A stretch of 51,389 nucleotides of DNA, from contig JANXZK010000023.1 of assembly GCA_025355565.1 (NCBI GenBank), positions 1 to 51,389 of the forward strand, in the 5' to 3' direction. The DNA comes from a bacterium (GTDB lineage: Bacteria; Patescibacteriota; Minisyncoccia; Phycocordibacterales; PALSA-1337). Numbering within the stretch: position 1 is the stretch's first letter; each line of letters starts with the position of its first letter. Under the pieces are notes generated by a model. That model had not been told where the DNA came from and did not search any database. It worked only from the letters and a program-made list of their open reading frames with translations. Shown here piece by piece: positions 7,783 through 23,890 of the stretch. The translations under genes were made by a program, and so were the position numbers.

Positions 7783-8148
7783 TTATTTGTGAGCGTGCTT
7801 TATAGATGTTCTAGCCGACGAGTTGGCTTCCAGGCGTTCTTTTTCGATGGGTTGACCGCACTTTTCACATATTCCATAGGTGCCAGCAGTGATCCTTTCG
7901 AGAGCGTCATTCACCTCTGTCAACTGATCATCAAGCTTGCTCACGATATTGCTATTGCCCTCATACTCTTCGAGCTTGTCCGCAACGGCATTTTCATCCG
8001 CCTTGTCGACCTCCATATCCTGAGTCGCCGCTTCCCAGCCATTCTTCGCTGAAGGATTTTTCTGCCCGATAGAAGCCAGCTCTCCCTCTAGTTCAGTCTT
8101 CTCGGCTAATAATTTCTCCTTAAAATTTTGTGTGTCTTTTGTGTTCAT
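7783..8148 (-). CDS. DksA/TraR-family zinc-finger protein
   Basis: A 121-aa protein with an N-terminal coiled-coil-like segment and a C-terminal YGICEKCGQPIEKERLEA element, characteristic of the DksA/TraR C4 zinc finger. The usual second half of the finger (RTCxxC/H) reads RTSIKHAHK, so one cysteine is replaced by Ser and the last ligand may be His. Zinc binding may be altered or lost. Family members bind RNA polymerase in the secondary channel and modulate initiation. It ends 20 bp before the shared promoter of the pilus operon and lies on the same strand, but that operon has its own upstream region. Confidence 0.85.
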   Translation of the reverse strand: MNTKDTQNFKEKLLAEKTELEGELASIGQKNPSAKNGWEAATQDMEVDKADENAVADKLEEYEGNSNIVSKLDDQLTEVNDALERITAGTYGICEKCGQPIEKERLEANSSARTSIKHAHK

Positions 8149-8160
8149 AATAGTAAAATT

Positions 8161-9486
8161 CTATCGTATAAAAGCTTGTTTTTCAAGTCGAGCGATGATC
8201 TCGGTCAATACGGCCTCATTGCTCGCTATGACCAATCTCTGATTGTCTACGAATGAGTACAAGAACAAGACGTCTCCATTCACTGTGACGAACTCTCTCA
8301 CATCTTTGTTCCGAATTATCCTGTCCACAAACTGACCTCTCAAAGTAAAGTAAGGCACTACAGGTGTCTCGCTCATTGTCGTAGTGGAAGTCACTGTTGT
8401 TGAGGCGACTGTCGAAGTTGCTGTCGTAGTCGTCCCAGATGGCGGCAATATAGCTTCCAGATTTTGTAATGGATCGGAATATGTGGATGAAGCAGGTGTA
8501 CTGGCTATACCCATGACTACTCCATTATATATATACTGCCTCAAATCATCTGACATGACGCTCTCCCACGCTAACATTCCCGCGAAAGCATTTTGGAAGA
8601 AATTATTGGTAACAACGACAAAGACGCTCTTCTTTTTTTGTTTATCAGCATATATGCCGAGCATCCACTTGGTTGACAGAGATCTTTCCAGCATGTTTGG
8701 TGGCTGGATCTTCATGATCTTGATCATCTCACTCGTCGTCGGCCTAGTTTTGACTCCTTTTACCGTGGTATAAGGGATGATCTCTTCGATCGTTCCTGCG
8801 ACTCCTGGGCTCGATATCAGTGATTGGATCTTGGATAGAATGGCAAAGTCATTCAGTCCATCGACCGCCATTATTTTTTGCGAATCGGAAGGTACGACAG
8901 ATGCTACGGGTGTCGCTCGTTGCTCGACTGACGTTGCCGGCGCGAGCGGACTCAGGCTGTAGAGGTAATACGCCCCCGCCACGCCGACTAGTATGAGCAA
9001 TAGGCTAAATACCGCCATGAGAGATTTCTTCTTGCTATCTCTGGGCTCCTTGTTGATGAGCTGATCTTTCTGACCAGTTTCCTTCTTGTTTTCAGCCATT
9101 ACCATATCTATCTTTGATGTACCTTTTTTCTTCATGAGGTTGGCAATATCGCCTTCGTAAGTACGTATCGAACTGATCCCGGGAAAAGTATCGCCTGGAA
9201 CACTGCTCGAAAGATTTGCCGCTGGGACCATCGGTTTGATCGATGTGGCAGGCTTGATTGGTTTTATTTGTGAACTCAGTCCAACTGGTTGGGGACTTAT
9301 CACTTTGGGTTTCGTATCATGAACCTGCACGGACGCCATCTCGGTATCAAAATCACCAGTAACAGGCTTAATTTTGAGATCAGGAGAGACTTCAAATACT
9401 TGTTCCGGTTGATATTTTGCCTCGTCTGGTTTATCGACAGGATTGATTGCTGCGGCGCTTGGCTCTAATACGATGTCATCATTCAT
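8161..9486 (-). CDS. Single-pass membrane protein of unknown function
   Basis: A 441-aa protein not recognised by family. About 165 residues of Pro/Lys/Ser-rich N-terminal region precede one membrane helix (SLMAVFSLLLILVGVAGAYY). A conserved-looking extracellular part follows (FAILSKIQSLISS; SVFVVVTNNFFQNAF; FTLRGQFVDRIIRN). It contains a Thr/Ser-rich stretch (about residues 350-370) like the linkers in other surface proteins here. Topology suggests a long cytoplasmic tail and an outer domain. It lies between pnp and the DksA-like gene on the same strand, 42 bp from pnp. Confidence 0.75.
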   Translation of the reverse strand: MNDDIVLEPSAAAINPVDKPDEAKYQPEQVFEVSPDLKIKPVTGDFDTEMASVQVHDTKPKVISPQPVGLSSQIKPIKPATSIKPMVPAANLSSSVPGDTFPGISSIRTYEGDIANLMKKKGTSKIDMVMAENKKETGQKDQLINKEPRDSKKKSLMAVFSLLLILVGVAGAYYLYSLSPLAPATSVEQRATPVASVVPSDSQKIMAVDGLNDFAILSKIQSLISSPGVAGTIEEIIPYTTVKGVKTRPTTSEMIKIMKIQPPNMLERSLSTKWMLGIYADKQKKKSVFVVVTNNFFQNAFAGMLAWESVMSDDLRQYIYNGVVMGIASTPASSTYSDPLQNLEAILPPSGTTTTATSTVASTTVTSTTTMSETPVVPYFTLRGQFVDRIIRNKDVREFVTVNGDVLFLYSFVDNQRLVIASNEAVLTEIIARLEKQAFIR

Positions 9487-17433: not shown

Positions 17434-18168
17434 ATGAGAAAAGATAGGGAACAAGCCGTAGTGCTTCGAAGGTCTGGATTGAGCTACTCTCTGATCACTG
17501 CCCGCATGTCAGTACCTAGAAGCACTCTTTCCAAGTGGTTCAAAGATCAGAAGTGGTCAAATGATATCGCCATAGAATGTGCCGATAGGGCGAGAAATAA
17601 CGGTGCGATCAGGTTAACTGTTATGAACACGATTCGACGAGGACGTCTAGACAACTTGCGCAAGCAGGCGAGACAGGATGCTTTGCTCGATTTCGAGGAT
17701 CTGAGGTACCATCCGTTATTCATTTCAGGTCTGATCGCCTACTGGATGCATGGTGACATGACATCCAGAAATAGAGTCAGCTACTCCAGTGCTGATGCTC
17801 ACAAGGTAAATCTATTCAAATCGTTTCTGGATAGGATCTGCGGTATTGCTCGACCTAAGGTGTGGATCAACCTAAAGAGAGGGAACCTGACTTTTCTAGC
17901 AGAATCGTATTGGGCAGAGAAATGCGGCTTAGATGAGAGAGATTTCGGAAAAACCATCGTTTCTGGTCGATTTGATGCCAATTATCATGGGAATACGATG
18001 ATTTCGAGTGATTCAAAAAGACAAAAGATAGGGAATATGGGTAACAATCACGGCGTTTGCAATATGGTTGTAAATAGTGCATACTTGAAAAATAAAATTT
18101 TGAAATGGGTAGAACTTTTGAAGGATGATTTGAAAAATGAGAGATACTTGGATGCGGGTATCGTTTAG
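17434..18168 (+). CDS. HTH protein with LAGLIDADG-like domain, overlapping tRNA-Gly
   Basis: A 244-aa protein with an N-terminal helix-turn-helix (about residues 1-40: VLRRSGLSYSLITARMSVPRSTL). A domain around FISGLIAYWMHGDMTS follows, with VSYSSADAHKVNLFKSFLDRICGI, which resembles LAGLIDADG-type folds seen in many CPR proteins of unknown role. It is probably DNA-binding; endonuclease activity is uncertain. The last five codons and the TAG stop lie inside tRNA-Gly (18154-18224). It sits between two tRNAs, consistent with a mobile or homing origin, which is inference. Confidence 0.7.
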   Translation: MRKDREQAVVLRRSGLSYSLITARMSVPRSTLSKWFKDQKWSNDIAIECADRARNNGAIRLTVMNTIRRGRLDNLRKQARQDALLDFEDLRYHPLFISGLIAYWMHGDMTSRNRVSYSSADAHKVNLFKSFLDRICGIARPKVWINLKRGNLTFLAESYWAEKCGLDERDFGKTIVSGRFDANYHGNTMISSDSKRQKIGNMGNNHGVCNMVVNSAYLKNKILKWVELLKDDLKNERYLDAGIV

Positions 18169-19673: not shown

Positions 19674-19744
19674 GCGGGATTAGTTAATCGGTATAATAAC
19701 AGTTTTCCAAACTGTGGTGGGGAGTTCGACTCTCCCATCCCGCA
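19674..19744 (+). tRNA. tRNA-Gly (anticodon TCC)
   Basis: Acceptor GCGGGAT/ATCCCGC, anticodon stem ACAGT/ACTGT with loop TTTCCAA, T-arm GGGAG-TTCGACT-CTCCC, discriminator A. The 3' sequence CCCGCACC (starting in the acceptor arm) is complementary to GGTGCGGG at 19773-19780, so trailer and acceptor arm could pair before processing. Confidence 0.92.
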
Positions 19745-19777
19745 CCTCGATTCGTCGCTTTGCTCCTCACTCGGTGC

Positions 19778-19800
19778 GGGCACGATCTAGGACGATGCCA
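19778..19800 (+). repeat. Left copy of 23-bp direct repeat flanking the helicase-Fic pair
   Basis: It matches 23267-23289 at 22 of 23 positions, same orientation (core GATCTAGGACGATGCCA). Both copies are preceded by TCGCTT(T/C)GCTC. It may be a boundary of an inserted segment or a common intergenic element. Confidence 0.6.
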
Positions 19801-19856
19801 GTCCATGGCTAAATAGAGCCATAATTAATGGATCAGATGCGACGTTAGCCCCCAGA

Positions 19857-22001
19857 TTAATCCTTTGACTTTTCGATCGTATTTATAATGAAATTATTTT
19901 TCTTATAGAATGATTCTCTCTTTTTCCACATTTTCTCCAATATTACTACCTTGCTGTCCCGGTAATCATATATTTTCTTTGCCCCACCGTCTCTTCTAAT
20001 GCGTCCTATATATTGAGCTAATTTACCATGGAAGGATACCGGAAAAGCCAGGAACAGCACGTCTAAATTTTGAATGTCTGTACCTTCTCCAAGTATTTGG
20101 CCAGTAGCGATTAAAATTGAGAATCTACCACCCTTAATCTTCTGAAGTGCAAATTTCCGTTGTCTGGCTGATAGATCACCAGTGAATAGGATAGTTTCAA
20201 AATCTTTTCTTAAGTATGCCTGAATCATTTGCGCGTGTTCTTTTCGTTCAGTAAGAACGAGACATCTCTTTCCATTCTTCACTTCATTAACAATGTCCGC
20301 CACGACCAATGAATTCCTGTGACTATCATTCGATATAACCTTCGACACGAGAGGAAAATTTCTCGGAGTAGTTCCGAACGGGACATCTATGTCCGTTGCA
20401 TGGACAATTACTTGGTCAGTTGAAGTTTTGTCTTCTGTATTGTTTTTGCGTATTATGATTTCATCTTTTTGCACGGTATGAACAATTGGGCCAAGATAAG
20501 CAGAAATGAGCTTCTGATCATTGTATTTCCGATCAGGAGTAGCTGTGAGTCCAAATAAGTACCGACCTGAAAACTTTGAGACTACGCCTCGGAACATCTT
20601 GGCTGGAACATGGTGGCATTCGTCCACGATTATAGTGCTGAACTTTCCACCTATTTCAGCATCGTCCATTCGAGCTAAAGTCTGGACCATTGCGATGGTT
20701 ACTGGCATAGCAATCTTTTTCTTTGTTGAACATATCTGACCGATTTTCGTTTTTGGAATACCAAGCGTATTTTCGATGCGTTCAAGCCACTGATCATAAA
20801 TTTGCCTTCTGTGAGTAAGGATTATTGCTGGTTGTTTTTTCAAAGCGATCAGCCCTAATCCTATGATTGTTTTTCCCGCTCCGGCCGGTGCAACCAAAAC
20901 ACCCTGATCTATTTTGGTGAAAGCTTTTACAGCTCTCTCCTGATAGGGGAATAGCTCTGTTTTCAAATTGAACTGCACTGGGCCAGTCATAACTCGTTCA
21001 TCTGAAACAGAATAATGAATCTTACGCTTCTCAAGCCAATCAGTTAAATCAGCCAGGAATCCCCGTGGAGTAGAGACGGTTTCGGTATCAGAAACAATAG
21101 TATTGATAAATCTTGGGGATCCATAGGTTGGTAAGCCCGCTCGCTCTTTAACAACGAATTCAATATTTAGAAGATTGAGCTCTTCACGAAGAAATGTAAT
21201 CAAAGATGATGTAAGTTCATTCTTGCTTATGTTTATCATCGATGAGATTCTCAAAGATACCACACCCTTGTAGCTCTTCAGTTTACGTCTCTTTGTAGAT
21301 GGAATTTCTACGGACGTGTTATATTTTTCGTAAAGGATGTCCATTTCCTTAGCTGTCATCAGATGAATGTTATTTAGAAACGACCATTGGTCATCAATAA
21401 CACCAAAATCATTTTCAGGATCTACGAAAACTGTATTTCCATCTTTGCGTGAAACACCCTGAAGTGGTAATGCGATCAGATTTCCAAATCCTTTACCGGA
21501 AAGATAATCTTGGTTGGGAAATAGACGATCAAAGCTTTCATTTTTCTCGAATTCTCCGATAGCTCCAACCTCTCGCAACAGGGAAGTAAATATTTTTCTG
21601 CTTTTGTAGGCCGGATACGGCTCAGCGAAAAATAGCCAAGCATGAGCACCGTTGCCTGAACGCGATCTTTCAAATACGACTGGCAATTTATATTTCTTGC
21701 AAATTGCATGAAATGTTTTAACAGATTCTTTCCATTTATCTCCATCAAAATCAGCCGCAATAAACCACGATGTATTATCGTGTAATAATGGATACACTCC
21801 CAAAACAGCATTTCCAAGTAGATGTCTTTCAGCCCAAATAGAAGTAAACGGTTCGTAAGCAAATTTCCGATAATCTGTATAAACGGGCGCATACCCGGAA
21901 ACAGAGCCGTCCCATTTATGCCACCGACGAGCAAAAATATCCTCACGTCCTTTGAATCTGGATATGAAGAGTCTCACTCTTTCTTCGCGCGATAGGGCCA
22001 T
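19857..22001 (-). CDS. AEP primase-like domain fused to a superfamily 2 helicase (TOTE-system type)
   Basis: A 714-aa two-part protein. The N-terminal ~200 residues (FKGREDIFARRWHKWDG; LGNAVLGVYPLLHDNTSWFI; AADFDGD; RSRSGNGAHAWLFF; FGNLIALPLQG) match the archaeo-eukaryotic-primase-like domain of TOTE conflict systems, with DxD and SGNGxH metal/nucleotide residues. The Cys-rich insert common in that domain is absent. The C-terminal half is an SF2 helicase: Walker A APAGAGKT, DECHH, LTATPDR and QYIGRIRRDG. No nuclease domain is seen. It is 9 bp downstream of the Fic gene and probably cotranscribed. Assignment is by motif; a conflict or element-maintenance role is inferred. Confidence 0.75.
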   Translation of the reverse strand: MALSREERVRLFISRFKGREDIFARRWHKWDGSVSGYAPVYTDYRKFAYEPFTSIWAERHLLGNAVLGVYPLLHDNTSWFIAADFDGDKWKESVKTFHAICKKYKLPVVFERSRSGNGAHAWLFFAEPYPAYKSRKIFTSLLREVGAIGEFEKNESFDRLFPNQDYLSGKGFGNLIALPLQGVSRKDGNTVFVDPENDFGVIDDQWSFLNNIHLMTAKEMDILYEKYNTSVEIPSTKRRKLKSYKGVVSLRISSMINISKNELTSSLITFLREELNLLNIEFVVKERAGLPTYGSPRFINTIVSDTETVSTPRGFLADLTDWLEKRKIHYSVSDERVMTGPVQFNLKTELFPYQERAVKAFTKIDQGVLVAPAGAGKTIIGLGLIALKKQPAIILTHRRQIYDQWLERIENTLGIPKTKIGQICSTKKKIAMPVTIAMVQTLARMDDAEIGGKFSTIIVDECHHVPAKMFRGVVSKFSGRYLFGLTATPDRKYNDQKLISAYLGPIVHTVQKDEIIIRKNNTEDKTSTDQVIVHATDIDVPFGTTPRNFPLVSKVISNDSHRNSLVVADIVNEVKNGKRCLVLTERKEHAQMIQAYLRKDFETILFTGDLSARQRKFALQKIKGGRFSILIATGQILGEGTDIQNLDVLFLAFPVSFHGKLAQYIGRIRRDGGAKKIYDYRDSKVVILEKMWKKRESFYKKNNFIINTIEKSKD

Positions 22002-22010
22002 AGACTCTCT

Positions 22011-23066
22011 TTATATCACACGATACCTAGTTCCGCGACCAGAACCGATGCGCTCGATCTTTTTTAATCGAAGTAATTTGGTAAGCACCTGATTGATTGT
22101 TGGTCGGGGCACATCGGTAGCTTCACTAATTGCGATAGGCGCTGATTCTCGTACGCTCTCAAGATATTTCCAGACGACCTCTTGTTGAGGAGACAGAAGC
22201 TTTTCGATTTGTTCACGCGAAAGTAATTCGACAGCTTTCTTGGATTGTTCCAGGAAAATCGAGAGGAAGAACTTTAGCCACGGAACAATCGTTTCTTTTT
22301 CTGTTCCAAATGACTTTTGACTTTGTCTCAACGCGATATAATATTCCGGTTTATTATCCTCTACCAGTTTCTCGTGTGACACATACGGCATATACTCAAA
22401 TCCTTGCTGCAGTAGAAGAAGATTTGTGAGAATGCGCGAAAGGCGTCCGTTACCGTCAGTGAACGGGTGTATTTGCAGGAACTCCACAAGGAAGTTGCAG
22501 ATAATTAGGAGGGGATGATATTTCTTCTCAATTAATTCAAGTTGCGTCCACTCGACTACTTCCTGCATTTCCTTGGGTGTCAGATATGCCGGTGTGGTGT
22601 CGAAAACAATCTCTATAGGATTTCCAGCCGCATCGATCATGGCCACTTTGTTCTCCTGTTTTTTGTAATCGCCGCGATGGGTTGTATCTTTTTCCACGTG
22701 TTTCAAAAGCTCACGATGGAAGAATTTAATCGTGCTTTCTGAAAACGAAATCGATCTGTAAGTATCGAATACATTATTGAGCAACTCGTAATACCCGAGC
22801 ACCTCCTGCTTGTCGCGATCTCTGAATTTATCAAGTTTCATTCCTCGAAGGAGCTTTTCAACTTCATCATCAGAAAGTTGAGCACCTTCAATGCGGGTAG
22901 AGGCACCTGTAGAAGTGACGAGTACAGATTTCTTAAGACGCGTCAAAACTTCACGGTCAAGTTCTGCACCTGTGGCCCAAGCATTCTTAGATTGATCGAC
23001 TTGTGCTATTGTCTGTATAATATCAATAGGTAAATTGTCGAGTCTTTTTGAAAAGTTTTTGGTCAT
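22011..23066 (-). CDS. Fic-domain protein (probable AMP transferase) with winged-helix C-terminus
   Basis: A 351-aa protein with the full Fic motif HPFTDGNGRLSR. The N-terminal inhibitory motif STRIEG fits the (S/T)xxxE(G/N) helix that blocks ATP in class II Fic proteins. The C-terminus (about residues 285-351; SEATDVPRPTINQVLTKLL, then IERIGSGRGTRYRVI) is a winged helix, suggesting self-regulation at DNA. A 15-bp inverted repeat spans its start and promoter. The target of modification is unknown. It probably forms an operon with the primase-helicase downstream. Confidence 0.9.
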   Translation of the reverse strand: MTKNFSKRLDNLPIDIIQTIAQVDQSKNAWATGAELDREVLTRLKKSVLVTSTGASTRIEGAQLSDDEVEKLLRGMKLDKFRDRDKQEVLGYYELLNNVFDTYRSISFSESTIKFFHRELLKHVEKDTTHRGDYKKQENKVAMIDAAGNPIEIVFDTTPAYLTPKEMQEVVEWTQLELIEKKYHPLLIICNFLVEFLQIHPFTDGNGRLSRILTNLLLLQQGFEYMPYVSHEKLVEDNKPEYYIALRQSQKSFGTEKETIVPWLKFFLSIFLEQSKKAVELLSREQIEKLLSPQQEVVWKYLESVRESAPIAISEATDVPRPTINQVLTKLLRLKKIERIGSGRGTRYRVI

Positions 23067-23109
23067 ATAATCTTATATAGCTTATACATATGATTATATA
23101 AGATTATAT
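23065..23109 (-). promoter_or_regulatory. Putative operator of the fic operon
   Basis: ATATAATCTTATATA (23065-23079) and its exact complement (23095-23109) flank 15 bp. The left arm touches the fic start codon, and the arms contain TATAAT-like -10 sequences. This is the expected layout for autorepression by the winged helix of the Fic protein. Confidence 0.6.
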
Positions 23110-23266
23110 AAGAAAAGCAAGCTTGTATTGTTGACCGTCTCAGTTGACAAATTACAGCTCTCAAAATCCCTATGTCTTAAACTATACTGATCAGGTGCGA
23201 TATTAATGTCCCGGATTCCTTAATTCAGCACTTCTTCGCTTTCGCTTCGCTCAAGCTACAAAGTGT

Positions 23267-23289
23267 GGGCATGATCTAGGACGATGCCA
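23267..23289 (+). repeat. Right copy of the 23-bp direct repeat
   Basis: It differs from 19778-19800 at one position. Together the copies bracket 3.5 kb containing the helicase and fic genes. The sequence between 23110 and 23266 holds no gene. Confidence 0.6.
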
Positions 23290-23302
23290 ATCATCAGAAA
23301 AT

Positions 23303-23437
23303 CATGAAAAATCTGAACCTGAAAAATTTCTGACAGATGAAGGCTTGAAGATCTGTTTTAATGATGTTACAACAGTCAAGAATGGTACAAGAAAGTGGAT
23401 TCAAATGGTTGCTCAAAAAATGGCTATCAAAACGTAA
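23303..23437 (+). pseudogene. Possible gene remnant
   Basis: A frame without a start codon ends at 23437 and reads ...EKSEPEKFLTDEGLKI and then KWIQMVAQKMAIKT. The composition looks protein-like, and the frame is open upstream into the direct repeat. It could be the tail of a gene cut off by insertion or deletion. No family is recognised, and it may be chance. Confidence 0.25.
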
Positions 23438-23495
23438 CCCGCGTACGAATATGTCATAGATCGGGTTACCGTGTTTCCATCATGACAACAGACAC

Positions 23496-23531
23496 AAAAG
23501 ACCGCCTTTGATTTATTCAAGGCGGCCTTTT
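23496..23531. terminator. Bidirectional intrinsic terminator
   Basis: CCGCCTTTGA pairs with TCAAGGCGG (one bulge) and is flanked by AAAAG and CTTTT, so either strand ends in a T-run. It lies between the remnant and hup (minus strand). A second GC hairpin (CAGGC-GTAAAA-GCCTG) occurs near 23570-23590. Confidence 0.65.
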
Positions 23532-23617: not shown

Positions 23618-23890
23618 TTATTTTACTGCGTCTTTCAACGCCTTTGCGGCACGGAACTTTGGAACCTTCATAGCTGGGACCTTGATAGCCTCACCAGTAC
23701 GAGGATTTCGAGCCTCACGAGCTGCACGCTGTTTGACTGAGAAGATGCCGAGACCTGCGATCGAGACCTCCTCACCCTTCTTTAGAGAGTCGATGATGCT
23801 GTTGATCACCGTGTCGACTGTCTGCTCGGCTTGAACCTTAGTTCCTCCGAGAACTCCGTGAACTGCTTCTACGATTGCTGCTTTGTTCAT
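23618..23890 (-). CDS. hup: HU-family DNA-binding protein
   Basis: A 90-aa histone-like protein: MNKAAIVEAVHG, GEEVSIAGLGIFSVKQR and the DNA-arm region ARNPRTGEAIKVPA are typical of HU. It bends and compacts DNA as a dimer. Full length and single-copy in this window, with its own promoter about 80 bp upstream. Confidence 0.95.
   Translation of the reverse strand: MNKAAIVEAVHGVLGGTKVQAEQTVDTVINSIIDSLKKGEEVSIAGLGIFSVKQRAAREARNPRTGEAIKVPAMKVPKFRAAKALKDAVK

Follow-up and report, generated by a model that had tools for sequence, protein, structure and literature searches.

Two characterized Fic proteins resemble the one described here. SoFic is reported to act against phages, with SoFic-type Fic proteins protecting in an abortive-infection-like manner (PMC12249575). 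Like the Fic protein of our locus, SoFic (3ZCN, 9TCH; PMC12249575) is a class II protein of similar length with an N-terminal inhibitory helix and a C-terminal regulatory domain. SoFic has been described as acting from a single gene, and in one E. coli strain the 47-aa antitoxin AS1 is encoded downstream of it, whereas our Fic gene is followed 9 bp on by a helicase gene. In Coxiella burnetii CbFic2 (8CIL; PMC10628234), DNA binding controls (de)AMPylation. Both proteins are class II Fics with a C-terminal winged HTH, which in ours is a prediction, and Foldseek aligns them at about 19% identity. The CbFic2 assays used histone H3 and random DNA, and the consulted portion of that paper reports no helicase partner (PMC10628234).

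Here we analyzed a 51,389-nt stretch of DNA, hereafter the window (contig JANXZK010000023.1, positions 1 to 51,389). Its genome is 832 kb in 27 contigs, with an estimated completeness of 99.7%, and the named relatives are Kaiserbacteria and Uhrbacteria, i.e., Patescibacteria. On the minus strand, a gene for a 714-aa primase-helicase begins 9 bp after one for a 351-aa Fic protein, exactly as the first-pass annotation had placed them. The two co-oriented genes are probably co-transcribed. The unit and its surroundings are as follows.

19674..19746, plus strand: tRNA-Gly(tcc), oriented with its 3' end toward that of the unit; bounds the lineage-specific DNA on the left
19747..23520, no strand: lineage-specific insert of ~3.8 kb, replacing unrelated DNA of same-genus genomes
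19774..19803, plus strand: left copy of a 30-nt direct repeat flanking the unit
19857..22001, minus strand: AEP-TOTE primase fused to an SF2 XPB/ResIII helicase, 714 aa, without a nuclease domain (Pfam, motifs, model)
22002..22010, minus strand: 9-bp gap from Fic stop to helicase start (ORF coordinates)
22011..23066, minus strand: class II Fic gene (AMP-transferase fold), 351 aa (Pfam, motifs, AlphaFold model)
23069..23105, no strand: predicted dyad operator, AATCTTATATA...TATATAAGATT, also given as AATCTNATATA...TATANNAGATT, over the -10 of the Fic promoter
23263..23292, plus strand: 30-nt direct repeat, right copy, 90% identical to the left one
23618..23890, minus strand: HU gene, the conserved right neighbor of the hotspot, outside the unit

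The Fic protein matches Pfam Fic at 60 bits (cut-off 24), with the active-site motif HPFTDGNGR at residues 200–208 and the class II inhibitory helix motif STRIEG toward the N-terminus at residues 56–61. Both fit the class II patterns HPFx(D/E)GNGR and (S/T)xxxE(G/N), are invariant in the alignment, and are kept in nine of the ten helicase-partner Fics examined. The class II assignment of the first-pass annotation is thus upheld. For the winged helix it also claimed, the C-terminus resembles wHTH domains (TrmB, DIP2311-like) at scores under the Pfam cut-offs. The AlphaFold model (mean pLDDT 75) resembles 4RGL, CbFic2 (8CIL), and SoFic (3ZEC), and its C-terminus is winged-helix-like, with helices at 293–333 and strands at 337–340 and 347–350, a candidate DNA-binding domain. 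The PADLOC SoFic model matches at 142 bits; the NCBIfam SoFic equivalog scores 47.4 bits, below its curated threshold of 550. With a helicase as its next gene, the window Fic does not stand alone as SoFic does, and solo relatives of it exist. The genome (G000) encodes seven Fic-domain genes, more than any of 19 relatives sampled, and two of them are close together on contig C14 (L046:4814-5872 and 8126-9184).

The helicase matches Pfam AEP-TOTE at 243 bits (cut-off 27), together with ResIII and Helicase_C. Its primase domain spans residues 7–221 and retains DFD and SRSGNGAH, with the catalytic residues D84, D86, S113, S115, and H120 invariant across alignments; residues 7–226 are also matched in sequence by the CRISPR-associated Prim-Pol. 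The SF2 helicase part covers residues 345–700, with a Walker A motif GAGKT at 374–378 and DECHH at 460–464. The catalytic DxD and S/H motifs and the fused SF2 helicase that define AEP-TOTE primase-helicases are therefore all present. In structure, the model (mean pLDDT 78) is similar to XPB and to the CRISPR-associated Prim-Pol.

No nuclease domain was found in the 714-aa protein by Pfam or in the model, and the insert holds no third gene, so the primase, helicase, and nuclease triad of TOTE is incomplete in the window. The first-pass annotation was right that the nuclease is missing. It had also treated this absence as special, with Fic in the place of the nuclease, and that part is not supported. 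The common form of the helicase family, plasmid copies included, is 700–880 aa with no detected nuclease, and a C-terminal PLDc nuclease occurs only in L106 and L207 (both ~950 aa) among eight members scanned. Because helicases of this form are common, Fic is not standing in for a nuclease here, and its role as a substitute for a lost TOTE nuclease is ruled out. Frame shifts or stops interrupt the helicase copies in L097, L098, L099, and L315, which indicates that the gene decays frequently, as any dispensable cargo would.

Relatives of the two genes were sought in the family, class, phylum, and order as well as in viral and genome contigs, and their flanks were then inspected; a single-protein search gave few relatives and an alignment search many more. 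The first-pass annotation had proposed looking for the same pair in other genomes, and Fic is indeed found directly upstream of an AEP-TOTE helicase, on the same strand, in 22 loci with both genes (the window, L058, L095, L096, L097 (=G306), L099, L062, L201, L205, L206, L103, L304–L311, L313, L315/L324, and L321). L064 carries a decayed remnant. Among the 21 helicase genomes of the order sample, 13 are paired, one has a remnant, three show other contexts (G051, G933, G841), and the context of four could not be read, giving 13 of about 17 with readable context. Gaps range from 0 to 79 bp in 20 measured pairs and are mostly below 12. The IMG/VR contig L103 is also paired, with a helicase that is 33% identical and groups with plasmid sequences. 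Uniqueness of the pair to the window's genome is ruled out by this recurrence in many genomes, although the companion expectation, that each gene would be found alone elsewhere, partly holds. There are ~1.45 Fic genes per genome (29 in 20 genomes), which at some 800 genes per genome puts chance adjacency at an estimated ~0.2% per helicase. Judged by these gene positions, the pairing is beyond chance. None of 22 plasmid regions examined has a Fic directly upstream of the helicase, which makes the pairing, as far as sampled, mainly a Patescibacteria trait.

Several other genes were observed near these helicases. RecQ-like genes follow the primase-helicase in L309:1-1495, L310:941-1495, L311:606-1514, L058:7863-9752, and L095:1667-3541, overlapping it in L309, L310, and L311; in L095, a 28-aa helicase remnant separates RecQ from a second Fic that precedes it. 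A small gene, possibly an extra component, converges on the helicase 3' end in L059:5712-6038 (a SWIM zinc-finger match), L064:4555-4968, and L315:1185-1499. A conserved uncharacterized protein of 74–87 aa directly follows the helicase in L058:7151-7375, L096:7069-7293, and L306:1229-1492.

Partners have been exchanged between pairs. For example, L058 and L096 carry sister helicases that are 83% identical with Fics from two clades that are 45% identical, whereas the window and L307 carry Fics of one clade (66% identical) with helicases that are 42% identical. At least four Fic subfamilies occur in pairs. In the Fic tree, which predates the order-level search and so lacks its loci, paired Fics appear in at least three places amid mostly solo Fics. 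On the helicase tree, the Fic-upstream state requires eight changes, at least six of them forced by well-supported branches. Because of this exchange and the forced changes, we read the trees as saying that Fic and helicase are repeatedly brought into one order, beyond joint inheritance. The swap of Fic over a nearly identical helicase, together with the converse case, suggests selection on the pairing as such.

The pair lies in DNA that differs between close relatives. Homology to same-genus genomes is lost at the 3' end of tRNA-Gly (19746) and returns at about 23521, ahead of HU, and the real unit is therefore the whole 3.8-kb insert, which contains only the Fic and helicase genes. The insert is AT-rich, with a GC content of 0.406 versus 0.459 in the rest of the window. 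A check for loss or gain between close relatives, as had been suggested, showed the site to be filled differently in same-genus G021, G026, G027, and G028. The nearest relative has a different Fic there; G021 has a clade B Fic, 46% identical to that of the window, G027 nothing recognizable, G028 a phosphoesterase, and G026 a large serine recombinase. The interval from tRNA-Gly(tcc) to HU/rnY (window 19747-23520; L274-L290) is a genus-wide integration hotspot whose cargo differs in nearly every genome, ranging from 0.6 kb when empty (G027) up to many kb. The G026 recombinase (L288:2524-3888) directly follows the same tRNA-Gly(tcc), and similar serine recombinases adjoin the pair in L058 and the helicase in L060. 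In L095, a split integrase is next to tRNA-Ser.

Of 66 units of either gene, 11 face a tRNA 3' end within 300 bp; for control ORFs the figure is 10 of 394 (Fisher p 2.6e-5). The test is conservative because the control ORFs include hotspot loci. In the genome, the core of the 30-nt repeat has exact matches at the two flanking copies only, and it was not found at the corresponding sites of eight relatives or around the solo Fics examined. Integration by duplication of the tRNA 3' end is ruled out, as a copy of the tRNA end is absent on the right side. An HTH protein family, by eye possibly homing-endonuclease-like, has genes ending at or inside a tRNA 5' end (window 17434-18168, L281:561-1235, L284:499-1173, L288:1615-2289); the window member overlaps tRNA-Gly(gcc) at 18154.

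The Fic gene is preceded by the dyad at 23069-23105, for which zero matches are expected by chance in the window. Of 49 Fic genes of the family, 15 have at least two dyad half-sites in the 90 nt upstream, compared with 0 of 413 control ORFs; six further paired clade-A Fic loci also have at least two. The dyad is common to paired and solo clade-A Fics. The simplest reading is that the Fic wHTH would repress its own promoter, with the helicase covered as the second gene.

We favor a mobile defense or addiction module in which Fic is the exchangeable effector and the helicase the DNA-acting half, at a probability of roughly 0.55, ahead of element maintenance and then of mere neighborhood. At the sequence level it draws on gene order, close spacing, intact motifs, recurrence, partner exchange, a common operator, and a variable site; it is favored because these traits are joined by the published protection by SoFic and the DNA-controlled (de)AMPylation by CbFic2. 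Further support comes from the PADLOC SoFic match, from the TA, Abi, and restriction genes that otherwise neighbor the helicase, and from mobile contexts with a serine recombinase, TniB/TniQ, or integrases. The Fic, a SoFic/CbFic2-like class II protein, would be self-inhibited and on release may AMPylate a host (or invader) protein, and its C-terminal winged helix would probably repress its own promoter through the dyad. The AEP-TOTE helicase may load on, unwind, or prime on DNA, probably that of an invader or of the element itself. Both proteins would then belong to a single pathway; in its simplest version, the helicase would engage foreign or damaged DNA and Fic would be the exchangeable effector, and the benefit of such a module would be defense. 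Counting against a module, Fic of the window's clade is usually solo and so needs no helicase, the helicase often exists without Fic, several of its copies are broken, and it was found in no annotated phage genome. The first-pass annotation had proposed a defense or selfish two-gene system, of which a real, recurrent, and mobile unit in defense- and TA-like company survives; the significance given to the missing nuclease does not. Its further suggestions, that AMPylation may kill the cell or gate the helicase, are hypotheses.

A second possibility, which we consider doubtful, is a cassette for addiction and maintenance, with Fic as a stabilizing toxin-like protein and the primase-helicase serving replication, repair, or transfer of the element, with no gain to the host. 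The helicase does occur in mobile settings, including plasmid and transposon contexts (TniB/TniQ, triple tyrosine recombinases, resolvase, integrases), with serine recombinases adjoining pairs or helicases, and AEP-helicases of archaeal plasmids act as replicases (PMC4538821). Against this cassette, the copies in Patescibacteria are mostly found in small inserts on the chromosome that lack replication and transfer genes, and the insert in the window has just the two genes. The recurrent neighbors are also effectors and restriction enzymes rather than replication proteins. Where Fic is absent, such genes often adjoin the helicase: PIN (L200), the endonuclease TdeIII (L063), a C5 methylase together with Vsr (L197), or a NOV_C protein with an SNF2 helicase (L061); those on plasmids adjoin HigBA, HipA, Xre/RES, AbiEii, TniB/TniQ, and integrases.

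It is unlikely that Fic and helicase are two independent defense-island genes that share hotspots and are functionally unlinked. Each does occur alone, the helicase often without Fic and with many other neighbors, and both preferentially face tRNA 3' ends (11/66, against 10/394 for control ORFs). Random packing is nevertheless disfavored because of the invariant Fic-then-helicase order, the short gaps, the replacement of partners in the same order, and the six or more forced label changes. Very improbable is AMPylation of the helicase (or a partner polymerase) by Fic, keeping it off until infection: class II Fic enzymes modify proteins and the pairing is tight and operon-like, but one Fic clade goes with helicases only ~40% alike, and most often with none, and a specific helicase substrate is unlikely because Fic partners change so freely.

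A more general two-component immune design, so far undescribed, can be put forward tentatively, in which the AEP-TOTE helicase would sense DNA and exert control, the upstream gene would be an exchangeable toxin, and RecQ an occasional third component. That the several Fic subfamilies, AbiEii, HigB, and the PIN nuclease are jointly such exchangeable toxins is a similarly speculative extension.

Both proteins belong to known families, and their pairing seems not to have been described previously. Searches of the open-access literature turned up neither a description of the pair as a unit nor any TOTE papers; a description in subscription journals is possible. A family so far labeled a "conflict system" because of its domains can now be tested as a two-gene unit whose likely effector is of a known enzyme class, and solo SoFic-type proteins gain a candidate DNA-side partner. 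Little is known of how the ultra-small, host-dependent Patescibacteria handle mobile DNA, and this module is among the genes of their mobile hotspots.

Among known systems, the plasmid AEP-TOTE helicases (PF22548, "DEAD/DEAH box helicase") have the same AEP and SF2 architecture over their full length at 31–36% identity. Elsewhere such helicases adjoin HigBA, HipA, AbiEii, TniB/TniQ, or integrases, and some are ~950 aa with a C-terminal PLDc. The CRISPR-associated Prim-Pol CAPP (7NQD) has a similar AEP fold, with about 30% identity and a TM-score of about 0.8 to the target; the remainder of the window protein is an XPB-like helicase. The closest solved helicase domain is that of XPB (6P4F, 5TNU; E 4e-25). 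In XPB-Bax1 the partner is a nuclease, whereas the window helicase has a Fic upstream and a fused AEP domain.
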